Source: Candidatus Poribacteria bacterium
GTDB lineage: Bacteria > Poribacteria > WGA-4E > WGA-3G
Direction of reading: 5' to 3'
NCBI GenBank assembly: GCA_012270795.1
Contig: JAAXHO010000237.1
Location: 65,118 to 98,042 of the forward strand
Length of the DNA stretch: 32,925 bases
In this document: piece by piece, positions 27,791 to 31,164 of the stretch
Numbering within the stretch: the stretch's first letter is position 1
Layout: every line of letters starts with the position of its first letter
The notes under the pieces: model-generated
Told to the model about the DNA's origin: nothing
Database searches by the model: none
The model's input: only the letters and a program-made list of their open reading frames with translations
Program-made: the position numbers and the translations under genes

Positions 27791-28175
27791 ATACCATTTC
27801 TAATTGGTAATGTCTCTTTTTTGTAGCACAAACTTTATGAAGATTAACTAAATAATTCGGTAATTTCTTTAGTCCCGTAGGGACGATATGTTTATAGAAA
27901 ACGGACTAACAAGGTCTCTTTAGTCCCGTAGGGACGATATGTTTATCTAAGGTTTTTGTTTTACACATATCGTCCCTACGGGACTAAAGAGGGGGGAGTC
28001 AACGTTTTTCTATAAACATATCGTCCCTACGGGACTGAAGAGCGTTTAACATGTTTCGAATATACTTACCAAGAAATTACCGAATTAAAAAATTAATCTT
28101 CATTTAGTTTGTGTCGTATTAGGTTACATTTCACAAAAACCTGTAATACGACATCATTTATTAGAATTGGCATTA
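27791..28175. mobile_element. Composite palindrome: ATACCATTTC-end element with a large nested palindrome inserted
   Basis: Outer ends ATACCATTTCTAATTGG (from 27791) and TTAGAATTGGCATTA (to 28175) with the interior of the simple element at 14465-14580. The interior is split by a palindrome bounded by ATGAAGATTAA (27837-27847) and TTAATCTTCAT (28093-28103), next AATTCGGTAATTTCTT and its complement, and at the centre four copies of TAGTCCCGTAGGGACGATAT: two direct (about 27870-27889 and 27921-27940) and two inverted (about 27967-27986 and 28016-28035). No reading frame is evident. Its right end overlaps the stop codon of the rhodanese gene (28173-28175). Confidence 0.75.
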
Positions 28176-29009
28176 CTTTTCCTCAGGAATTTCAACCGGC
28201 AAATCCAGCCGGTCGCCCCACTCTTTCCAAGACCCAATATAGTTGCTGACCTTCGGATAACCGATAAGCCTCAACGCTAAATAGGTTTGGGAAGAGCGGT
28301 ATCCGCCCTGTCAGTAGCACATCACCTGTTTTTCCGGGGTGATCCCCGCAGCTTCATACATGTGCCGAAGTTCAGCAGCAGGTTTGAAAGCACCGCAATC
28401 ATCAAGATTGTTGAGCCACTCTATATGTATAGAACCTGGAATTGCACCAGCGCGTTCTGCACGCGCCACTCTACCGTAATGTTCATCATCTGTCCGCGTA
28501 TCTAATGGGATAAAGTCTGTTTGGTTCAGCGAAGCATGTATCCTATCAGCGTCCATGTGTATATCGTGTTGTGCTTCAATCGGAAACTGAGGCACTTCAG
28601 GCGGTGCAACGCCTTCAGTACTGACAGGTCCGTCAGCTGCTAACCACGCTTTGTACCCTCCATCTAATACGCGCGTATTCGTATGTCCTAAATACTCACA
28701 AAACCACAAACCCCGAGAGGCACGAGTTCCAGAAATATCTTCATACCAAATAATCGTTTTCGTATGATCAATCCCGCGTTGTTGAAATAGGTAAGCGATC
28801 ATCCACATAAATGTATTGTATGTTTCTTGGCTCGTATTGATAAGACTCAACCCAAATAGATCAAGATGCAATGCACCTGGAATATGCCCGCGTGTGTATT
28901 CATGTGCCGGACGCGTATCCACTATACAAACCGTTTTATCATTAAGACTATCCTTCAACTCTCCCGCAGAAATTATTAGTTGAGGGTTATCATACCCTTT
29001 GTTCGTCAT
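28173..29009 (-). CDS. Two-domain rhodanese with in-frame TGA at the catalytic cysteine (probable selenoprotein)
   Basis: Thiosulfate sulfurtransferase-like protein with tandem rhodanese domains. Domain 1 (about 12-130) is the usual inactive one: [19 protein letters not shown], with D in place of the active cysteine in [12 protein letters not shown]. Domain 2 (about 155-278) has [15 protein letters not shown] and [12 protein letters not shown]. Its active-site loop reads QVMCY-TGA-QGGYRSS: residue 233, where the family has the persulfide-forming cysteine, is the TGA at 28311-28313. Translation continues in the same frame with [18 protein letters not shown] and [19 protein letters not shown] to a TAA at 28173. 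Reading TGA as selenocysteine gives a 278-residue protein of normal length; stopping there removes the active site. No textbook SECIS hairpin was found by eye. The start follows AAAGGTGG and lies two bases after the MATE stop. Confidence 0.85.
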
Positions 29010-29011
29010 TT

Positions 29012-30400
29012 TCAGACCACCTTTCTGGTAGAATCACTACCACCATTGTTTATAACCTTTTTTGTTTTCCATCTTCCAGTTCTATACCATAACCACATAG
29101 CACCCCCTTGAACCACGTTTGATAGGGCAATCCCAATCCAAACCCCTTTTAGACCGATATAATGTGATAATAGAATGGCCAGCACCAAACCAACTCCTAA
29201 CTGGGCAGCGAGGGTAATCATCATCGGTGAAAAGGTATCTCCTGCACCGTTGAGTGCCTTGCCTAATACTAAAGAGAACGCTATGAAACCAAATGTGGGC
29301 GACAACCATTGAAGAAAATCGGAACCAATCTCAATGACTCCTAAATCATCGGTAAAAATCCTAAGAAATATACTGGGGAAAATTAGGAATAGTGCCCCAA
29401 TCCCTGTCATGAGTGATGTCCCGATGATATTCCCCATCCTTGCTGTTTCTTCAGCCCGTCCTATCTGATCTGCACCTACATTCTGACCAACAACAGGTGC
29501 TACAGCATTAGCAATGCCAAAACCGGGATTCATGACCAATATACGTAGCCGCATACATATTATATACGCAGCACCAGCAAATTTGCCATAAGGATTTATT
29601 ACCCACAAAAAACCGAGCCGTGTAAAATGCCTCCAGAATCCCTGCATAGAACTATAAATCCCTAACCTTAAAATGTCAAGCATTTCAACAAGATCGGTGC
29701 GGAACTGAACATTACGTAAAGAGATAGGGGCACGTCCACTGAAACAGAGGACAAGTAGAATGACCACACCGACACCCCTGCCGATGAGTGTTGCATACGC
29801 TGAACCAGCGACACCTAATTTCGGGAAATGCCAAAGACCAAAAATCAGAAGTGGATCAAGTCCGATGTTTATCAACGTAGAGAAAATCAGCACAATCATG
29901 GGTGTAACGGCATCACCACCAGCACGAAAGATAGAACCGAGTGTCATTGATAGAAACATCGTGCTGATACCGACAAGGATGATATGCATGTAAGTTGTAC
30001 CGAGTTGTAGTACATCTTGTTCCGTTGTTCTTATCACACGTAAACCGAATTCTGCCAATGGGTACCCAACAATACTGATGCCTACAGAAAAGAAAAAGGC
30101 GAGTAGAATCGCCTGCATAGATACATAACTTGCTTGCGCATGATTTCTTGCACCGAGGTACTGTGCCACCATAATACCCGCACCCGTTGAGATACCAAGG
30201 GAAAATATACCGACCAATCTAAGCAAATTGCCACTATAACCTACTGCTGCAATCGCAGCAGGTCCTAATCTACCAACAAAAATCATGTCAACGATATTAA
30301 ACGCATCTTGTAAGATGTACCCACACGTTATCGGCACAGCAAGTTTTAGCAAGTGGTGTAGCAAACTACCTTGCGTCAAATCACTTCGAGGTTTATTCAT
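29012..30400 (-). CDS. MATE family efflux transporter
   Basis: A 462-residue inner-membrane protein with about 12 hydrophobic segments in two related halves, the form of multidrug and toxic compound extrusion transporters that use Na+ or H+ gradients. Recognisable pieces: LLKLAVPITCGYILQDAFNI, MIFVGRLGPAAIAAVGYSGN, SIFRAGGDAVTPMIVLI, and in the second half PVVGQNVGADQIGRAEETA and LGKALNGAGDTFSPMMITL. The start is the ATG at 30400 after AAGGA (a TTG lies one codon earlier). The downstream rhodanese begins two bases after the stop, so the pair is co-translated. The cargo is unknown. Transcription may come from a promoter formed by the end of a repeat element at 30424-30452. Confidence 0.92.
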   Translation of the reverse strand: MNKPRSDLTQGSLLHHLLKLAVPITCGYILQDAFNIVDMIFVGRLGPAAIAAVGYSGNLLRLVGIFSLGISTGAGIMVAQYLGARNHAQASYVSMQAILLAFFFSVGISIVGYPLAEFGLRVIRTTEQDVLQLGTTYMHIILVGISTMFLSMTLGSIFRAGGDAVTPMIVLIFSTLINIGLDPLLIFGLWHFPKLGVAGSAYATLIGRGVGVVILLVLCFSGRAPISLRNVQFRTDLVEMLDILRLGIYSSMQGFWRHFTRLGFLWVINPYGKFAGAAYIICMRLRILVMNPGFGIANAVAPVVGQNVGADQIGRAEETARMGNIIGTSLMTGIGALFLIFPSIFLRIFTDDLGVIEIGSDFLQWLSPTFGFIAFSLVLGKALNGAGDTFSPMMITLAAQLGVGLVLAILLSHYIGLKGVWIGIALSNVVQGGAMWLWYRTGRWKTKKVINNGGSDSTRKVV

Positions 30401-30423
30401 CAATATCCTTACTTTCTATCAAC

Positions 30424-30452
30424 ATTATACCAATTCTAATTAATATTGTCCC
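30424..30452 (-). promoter_or_regulatory. Outward promoter formed at a repeat element end, reading into MATE-rhodanese
   Basis: On the minus strand: GGGACA (30447-30452), 17 bases, perfect TATAAT (30424-30429). The -35 and spacer are inside the repeat, and the -10 straddles its terminal GGTAT and flanking ATT. The start codon at 30400 follows after a short leader with AAGGA. No better promoter is visible upstream. Confidence 0.5.
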
Positions 30453-30639
30453 ATTAAGGAATTTCACTGTTATCGTTGGTTGGCGATATCTCTTCGGTAG
30501 GAGCGACCTCCAAATCAACGGAATGAATCCTGGGGGATGCCATGCGCGCATTCGCCCAATGGCATCCCCGGGTCGCGACCAGGAGGTCGCTCCTACCCGA
30601 CTCTGTAGCTAATGAGAAATTATATTTTAGAAATGGTAT
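30427..30639. mobile_element. ATACCAATTC-end palindromic element, tandem copy 1
   Basis: Ends ATACCAATTCTAATTAATAT and TTTTAGAAATGGTAT, second arms CATTA / TAATG, and the GTAGGAGCGACC hairpin. That hairpin is itself interrupted by another palindrome (AAATCAACGGAATGAATCC, then GGGGATGCCAT / ATGGCATCCCC). It is followed after one base by a second copy. Confidence 0.75.
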
Positions 30640-30640
30640 T

Positions 30641-30855
30641 ATACCAATTCTAATTAATATTGTCCCATTAAGGAATTCCACTGTTATCGTTGGTTGGCGA
30701 TATCTCTTCGGTAGGAGCGACCTCCAAATCAACGGAATGAATCCTGGGGGATGCCATGCGCGCATTCGCCCAATGGCATCCCCCGGGTCGCGACCAGGAG
30801 GTCGCTCCTACCAGAACATTGCGACAAATGGCATCTTATTTTTTAGAAATGGTAT
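30641..30855. mobile_element. ATACCAATTC-end palindromic element, tandem copy 2
   Basis: Nearly identical to 30427-30639 over about the first 175 bases, then clearly different in the right arm (ACATTGCGACAAATGGCATC instead of the TAGCTAATGAG arm) before the same TTTTAGAAATGGTAT end. The pattern suggests tandem duplication or recombination between different family members. Confidence 0.75.
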
Positions 30856-30898
30856 TTATTATAATCACATCCAAATATTGCTAAATGAAAAATTGCAA

Positions 30899-31164
30899 GG
30901 GTGTGTAAAGTTTTTGTCATTAGATGTTTCTGATGGGTGTGTAAAGTTTTTGTTCAATATAAAATTCTATTTCGCTTTTTGCGTAGTGTAAATATCATTT
31001 TGCATGCAATTTTTCGTTAGCTCAGTTTTTGTATATATTATAAGTGATTTTTAGTGCATTTTGTAGTTTTTTGGGTGTCTGTTTATTGGGATTTCCAATA
31101 TATATCCAATAGGTTTGGGGTAAGGGTGAATCATACATGATTCAGACAAAAACTTTACACACCC
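30899..31164. repeat. Inverted repeat element with GGGTGTGTAAAG ends
   Basis: GGGTGTGTAAAGTTTTTGTC at 30899-30918, a second direct copy at 30935-30953, and a perfect inverted copy at 31145-31164. The 190 bases between are AT-rich and non-coding. Possibly the remains of an insertion sequence that lost its transposase, or a MITE. Confidence 0.6.

Follow-up and report, generated by a model that had tools for sequence, protein, structure and literature searches.

Rhodanese-related sulfurtransferases that contain selenocysteine (Sec) have been described from several data sets. Selenoproteins of the COG2897/cd01449 type were first described in data from the Sargasso Sea (2005; PMC1088965) and then from the GOS (2008; PMC2398784), and a 2026 review (PMC13188914) lists Sec rhodaneses under 'form 2' and 'form 4' (UxxG). 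In bacteria, the RNA element that directs Sec insertion is a stem-loop in the coding region after the UGA. The published model of this element (bSECIS) allows a loop of 3-9 nt, a stem of 4-16 bp, a minimum free energy (MFE) of -7.5 kcal/mol or lower, and a distance of 16-37 nt between the UGA and the loop. According to the same review, some of the putative bacterial SECIS elements do not conform to the consensus model, which indicates distinct classes (PMC13188914). Archaeal and eukaryotic SECIS elements act at a distance from the UGA, but they are located in the 3' UTR and their cores are different. No long-range or composite bacterial SECIS was found in the openly licensed literature searched. 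At the locus described here, the protein is of a kind known since 2005, and a long-range composite SECIS would be the new part.

The DNA analyzed (hereafter, the window) is a stretch of 32,925 nucleotides from a Candidatus Poribacteria assembly of 5.18 Mb (298 contigs, 95% complete). A gene for a tandem rhodanese of 278 amino acid residues lies on its minus strand at 28173..29009, from ATG to TAA. The minus-strand translation (29009..28173) begins with MTNKGYDNP and is interrupted by a single TGA at codon 233 (28311..28313, read 28313..28311), which is followed by 45 sense codons and the TAA. Two stretches of the read-through translation matched the Pfam Rhodanese profile (E 1.4e-36). When the protein was aligned with Azotobacter RhdA (1e0c), codon 233 was placed opposite the loop cysteine (ycqggyrss versus hcqthhrsg), so that the catalytic loop CQTHHRS of RhdA corresponds to UQGGYRS of the rhodanese. 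The first-pass annotation had placed the TGA at the catalytic cysteine of the second domain, with an open frame behind it, and both the translation and this alignment bear it out. In the AlphaFold model (mean pLDDT 93.6), residue 233 is located between the strand 228-232 and the helix 237-248. The corresponding loop of the first domain has no cysteine in its sequence, and residue 233 is therefore the only expected catalytic position.

Among solved structures, the best relatives are thiosulfate sulfurtransferases such as RhdA, and Foldseek searches with this model returned the same enzymes, with a TM of about 0.8. These Cys enzymes (Azotobacter RhdA 1e0c, Thermus rhodanese 1uar, and mycobacterial CysA 3aax and 3hwi) share with the rhodanese the fold, the tandem domains, and a single active site in the second domain. 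They differ in having Cys where the rhodanese has Sec, in a different loop, and in sequence, with only about 30% identity. No NCBIfam family scored above its own cut-off. The profile of 3-mercaptopyruvate sulfurtransferase (NF008557) scored 103.6, with a cut-off of 250. The loop of 3-mercaptopyruvate sulfurtransferases is of the CG[S/T]GVT type and not UQGGYRS, and the rhodanese thus agrees with this identity in neither respect. The reported Sec rhodaneses have Sec at the position of the catalytic Cys and the UxxG motif, as does the protein described here; compared by description, it very probably belongs to the same family. As differences, Poribacteria are not named in the portions of text searched, and no long-range element is given for the reported proteins. 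The source genome additionally encodes a distant Cys rhodanese with the loop CRIGERSS.

The machinery for Sec insertion, for which the first-pass annotation had suggested a search, was largely found in the source genome. The tRNA-Sec gene (78.5 bits, anticodon TCA) lies directly 3' of selB, at a distance of about 20 nt, and is followed by a lipA-like gene (L012:2928-5057, minus strand, contig C275). The selB gene was recognized by its SelB wing domain (68.1 bits) in a frame of 671 amino acid residues. SelD (371 bits; L013:2713-3759, minus strand, contig C161) itself contains one in-frame TGA (CAGUASK), and the same was observed in the SelD genes of the 30 relatives examined. The missing part is SelA, which a Pfam search did not detect in the source assembly, although 57 of the 60 genomes searched encode it, among them that of the closest relative (G013). 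The selA-bearing segment of G013 has no intact counterpart in the source assembly, where its neighbours gave only weak, paralogue-like matches. An assembly gap is the likeliest, though unproven, explanation of this absence. The tRNA-Sec was present in all 15 further genomes checked, with Sec and Cys forms alike. SelA and SelB have been reported as enriched in sponge-associated lineages (PMC5649159).

The TGA at codon 233 was conserved in 45 complete homologues and one fragment from the 60 genomes searched, down to 67% identity. Among the 85 distinct homologues in the named genome collection, 77 carry TGA at this codon, and the other eight have TGC (Cys), as the alignment with cysteine-containing homologues proposed in the first-pass annotation brought out. 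The TGA-bearing homologues come from Poribacteria and from Latescibacterota, Gemmatimonadota-labelled, and Nitrospinota genomes, the last three groups at 51-60% identity. At least two changes between the Sec and Cys states are needed on the homologue tree. Selection continues past the TGA, with a dN/dS of 0.056 after it compared to 0.078 before it (13 pairs). The machinery, the TGA shared across phyla, the Cys homologues, and the selection past the TGA together leave little doubt that UGA 233 is read as Sec, and from these sequence comparisons residue 233 is almost certainly selenocysteine. A selenocysteine rhodanese had been the central proposal of the first-pass annotation, to be abandoned if the genome had no machinery or if the gene decayed after the TGA; neither is the case, given tRNA-Sec, SelB, and SelD in the genome and the low dN/dS after the TGA. 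Two other readings of the codon have to be considered. A nonsense mutation, a pseudogene, or a sequencing error has a negligible probability, because dozens of independent assemblies, single-contig genomes included, have this TGA, and because the frame behind it is intact and under the selection described above. The conservation of the TGA thus rules out a pseudogene or error, and the chance nonsense mutation that the first-pass annotation had argued against is dismissed with them. Programmed readthrough without selenium, in which a downstream structure would stimulate the insertion of an ordinary amino acid at the UGA, is very improbable. Downstream RNA structures can indeed stimulate readthrough in other systems. 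However, the genome encodes tRNA-Sec, SelB, and SelD, with SelD being a Sec gene itself; Cys is the sole alternative meaning of codon 233 among the homologues, and the RNA structure described below is lost in the Cys genes.

For the description of the RNA, the U of the UGA is numbered 1, so that the window base equals 28314 minus the position, and all features lie on the minus strand. Covariation was analyzed in 47 non-redundant Sec genes, 37 from Poribacteria and 10 from other phyla. The UGA (positions 1-3) is followed by a spacer of 11 nt (positions 4-14, 28300..28310), which is expected to lie inside the ribosome when the UGA is in the A site. The spacer is followed by the 5' strand of a predicted long-range helix, CCGCUCUU (positions 15-22, 28292..28299), the 3' strand of which is AAGAGUGG (positions 89-96, 28218..28225). 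This helix has 8 bp, of which two are doubly covarying pairs, and is 99.7% paired in the 47 genes. The segment looped out by it contains a further stem (positions 39-43 with 68-72, 28242..28275), also with two doubly covarying pairs; with 92.8% of the cells paired, this stem is weaker than the long-range helix and the distal hairpin. A linker of 3 nt joins the long-range helix to the distal hairpin, GACCGGC-UGGAUUU-GCCGGUU (positions 100-120, 28194..28214), which is 97.6% paired and which we propose as the SelB-binding hairpin. It has 7 bp and a 7-nt loop, with a folding energy of -13.1 kcal/mol for the commonest sequence and -11.5 kcal/mol for that of the window. The loop reads UGGAUYU in nearly all Sec genes, with GG at loop places 2-3, and is closed by C-G. 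Along the sequence, 103 nt separate the UGA from this loop; the distance is about 23 nt only when the closed segment 16-95 is skipped.

The RNAalifold consensus of the 47 Sec genes contained the pairings 15-22 with 89-96 and 100-106 with 114-120. In the long-range helix, third codon positions change in concert (codons counted from the UGA). Codon 5 is CGC with GAG at codon 30, and CGU with GAA (12 genes) or, via G-U, with GAG (3 genes); codon 6 is UCU with AAA at codon 29, and UCC with AAG in 5 of 5 cases. Both pairs are free of mismatches. Of the 378 third-position pairs, they have the highest and second-highest mutual information, and they changed jointly 9 and 3 times on the tree, respectively; these changes are fewer than the cells because the 47 sequences are related. 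In the distal hairpin, exchanges of C-G with U-A and of C-G with A-U were observed at 102-118 and 103-117. When the pairing partners were slid by 1-3 columns as a register control, the paired cells dropped from 97% to 30-54%. The same long helix and hairpin were obtained from Poribacteria alone (37 genes) and from the other phyla alone (10 genes), whereas the Cys genes gave neither. Synonymous diversity reaches its minimum for the gene (ratio 0.30) at codons +34 to +38, which lie at the distal hairpin and not beside the UGA; the other stretch of low diversity spans codons -1 to +8.

The genes were also folded with positions 1-14 held unpaired, as they would be inside the ribosome, and compared with synonymous shuffles. 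Under this constraint the long helix was predicted in 47 of 47 Sec genes, with a mean z of -4.4, whereas ten other segments along the gene gave z between -0.43 and +0.35. The separate signals in a finer shuffle scan are explained by the long-range fold. In seven of the eight Cys homologues, z was between -0.6 and +1.2. The eighth (L110; z -2.8) has kept the long helix and has one hairpin pair broken, which is the state to be expected if Sec was replaced by Cys recently. This gene, which still has most of the RNA structure, appears to be a natural relict of such a change. L110, L111, and L116 are Cys versions in genomes with tRNA-Sec, and L202 is likewise a Cys version. A later search of 64 genomes of the phylum around L108 yielded six previously unseen UGA genes, all of which have 8 of 8 helix pairs and 6-7 of 7 hairpin pairs. 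In the unseen TGC gene from this search (L202), the hairpin loop is changed and only 4 of 7 pairs can form. The 20-nt hairpin motif occurred once per genome, in the rhodanese gene, in 17 of 18 Sec-form genomes, with a variant base in the remaining one (G002), and in none of three Cys-form genomes; a reversed control motif was found once in all 21. Comparison thus shows that a predicted composite RNA structure in the 120 nt after the UGA accompanies the UGA and decays in Cys homologues. It is very likely that this structure is real and serves Sec insertion. A role of the distal hairpin as a DNA site is disfavoured by the paired exchanges, by the G-U pairs tolerated on the mRNA side at 100-120 (13 of 47 genes), and by its degradation in Cys genes, and a terminator is disfavoured as no U run follows the hairpin.

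The distal hairpin resembles canonical bSECIS elements as a coding-region stem-loop after the UGA with a small loop, a G in the first two loop places, and a stable stem, and it fits the published model in loop size, stem length, and MFE. It falls outside the distance rule, at 103 nt compared to 16-37 nt, and is joined to the UGA region by a separate helix. It is also unlike the element in SelD of the same genomes, which is a local, ordinary-looking hairpin (GCUC-CGGGU-GAGC), 16 nt from the UGA and common to the 30 relatives examined. Action at a distance is shared with archaeal and eukaryotic SECIS elements; the rhodanese element differs from them in its position in the coding region and its bacterial-type loop, and the SelB of the source genome is of the bacterial type. 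About 11 nt of mRNA are covered in the tunnel of the ribosome (PMC4513850), which is the length of the spacer 4-14. In a ribosome positioned on the UGA, the mRNA tunnel would be filled by the spacer and the helix 15-22/89-96 would lie just outside. The helix would bring the distal hairpin to an effective UGA-loop distance of about 23 nt, within the usual 16-37 nt, and SelB with Sec-tRNA-Sec would bind the GG-containing distal loop and decode the UGA. The proposal that SelB binds there follows from the C-G-closed loop with GG at places 2-3, as in the local SelD hairpin (C[CGGGU]G in SelD and C[UGGAUYU]G in the distal hairpin). The Escherichia coli fdhF hairpin has the same loop features as the local SelD hairpin. 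The composite structure would thus be the SECIS of the rhodanese gene. Conservation and loop likeness make specific binding of SelB at the distal hairpin reasonably probable, and we hold with similar, moderate confidence that this is a bacterial SECIS acting at a distance, with its SelB-binding hairpin located ~100 nt downstream and brought to the UGA by the conserved long-range helix. The explanation as a whole, a Sec233 tandem rhodanese with a composite long-range SECIS and SelB at the distal hairpin, is likely.

Two other arrangements of the same RNA were weighed. In the first, the large 15-96 hairpin would be an extended SECIS with SelB at its apex, and the distal hairpin would only help, for example, by stacking or pausing. 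The segment 15-96 does fold as one long stem in predicted folds, and its apex contains the Gly-Tyr codons GGN UAY, which could put a G in the loop. This arrangement is nevertheless unlikely, as the apex codons show ordinary synonymous diversity, whereas the distal loop is almost invariant; moreover, the distance from the UGA to the apex, about 50 nt, is also outside 16-37 nt, and the mid stem is paired in fewer cells than the other elements. More doubtful still is an ordinary local SECIS formed by a hairpin at positions 5-21, with the long-range pairing being secondary. Many Sec genes can form such a hairpin (5-11/15-21) locally, and codon 4 is always UAC, but none of the hairpin pairs is changed on both sides, pair 5-21 is broken in each of the five genes with UCC, and the hairpin loop begins only about 8 nt after the UGA. 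It also requires bases that are inside the ribosome during decoding, and it leaves the distal hairpin unexplained. The 5-11/15-21 hairpin is an alternative fold when the spacer is free and competes for the same bases as the long helix; it may form before the ribosome arrives and would be unable to form while the UGA is read. The conventional SECIS that the first-pass annotation had anticipated in the 60 bases after the TGA was therefore not borne out, the conserved element being long-range and the local hairpin lacking covariation.

Judged from the chemistry of the family, the role of the protein is most likely sulfane-sulfur transfer with Sec233 as the nucleophile and an Se-S intermediate. 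Sec233 would attack a sulfane-sulfur donor (thiosulfate or a persulfide), and the sulfur would be carried as Se-S on Sec233 and then passed to a thiol acceptor. A role of the rhodanese in selenium delivery is less likely; the ability of ordinary rhodaneses to carry selenium in perselenide form is cited in PMC11327102 and PMC9369223.

A gene for a MATE efflux transporter (29012..30403, minus strand; MatE 1.8e-56) lies directly upstream of the rhodanese gene, separated from it by 2 nt, and the two are probably co-transcribed. The link to a MATE exporter made in the first-pass annotation holds to this extent only, since other Poribacteria keep the adjacency only if they belong to the same family; it is of little help in assigning a function, and MATE was rejected as a general functional partner. 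Elsewhere, the upstream gene encodes seryl-tRNA synthetase (SerRS), an oxidoreductase, or other proteins, and a sulfatase is found among the neighbours, none of them consistently. Seryl-tRNA synthetase, the first charger of tRNA-Sec, is encoded directly upstream of the Sec rhodanese in two other Poribacteria (L097:1553-2947 and L100:488-1822), possibly by coincidence. Two repeats were observed in the window around these genes. Between a hydrolase gene and the rhodanese gene, a nested inverted repeat (27827-28113) has 43-nt arms that are 86% complementary; it contains four GTCCCGTAGGGACGATATGTTTA-like palindrome copies and resembles a small mobile repeat. At 30393-30991, two short ORFs share MRAWHPPGFIPLIWRSLLPKRYRQPTITV, and its presence in both indicates that the stretch downstream of the MATE gene start region has been duplicated.

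The rhodanese element offers a concrete example of a non-consensus SECIS, with covarying pairs in several phyla and with Cys genes as natural controls for the loss of Sec. If the explanation is correct, it would represent a second bacterial SECIS architecture, found in several phyla and kept with the Sec form of one enzyme, and searches for SECIS elements that stop about 60 nt beyond the UGA would overlook genes of this type or pick an incorrect hairpin. As rules for bacterial Sec insertion, nearness in space and a position directly after the UGA in the sequence would then be separate things. For the sponge-associated lineages, the rhodanese adds a conserved selenoenzyme.
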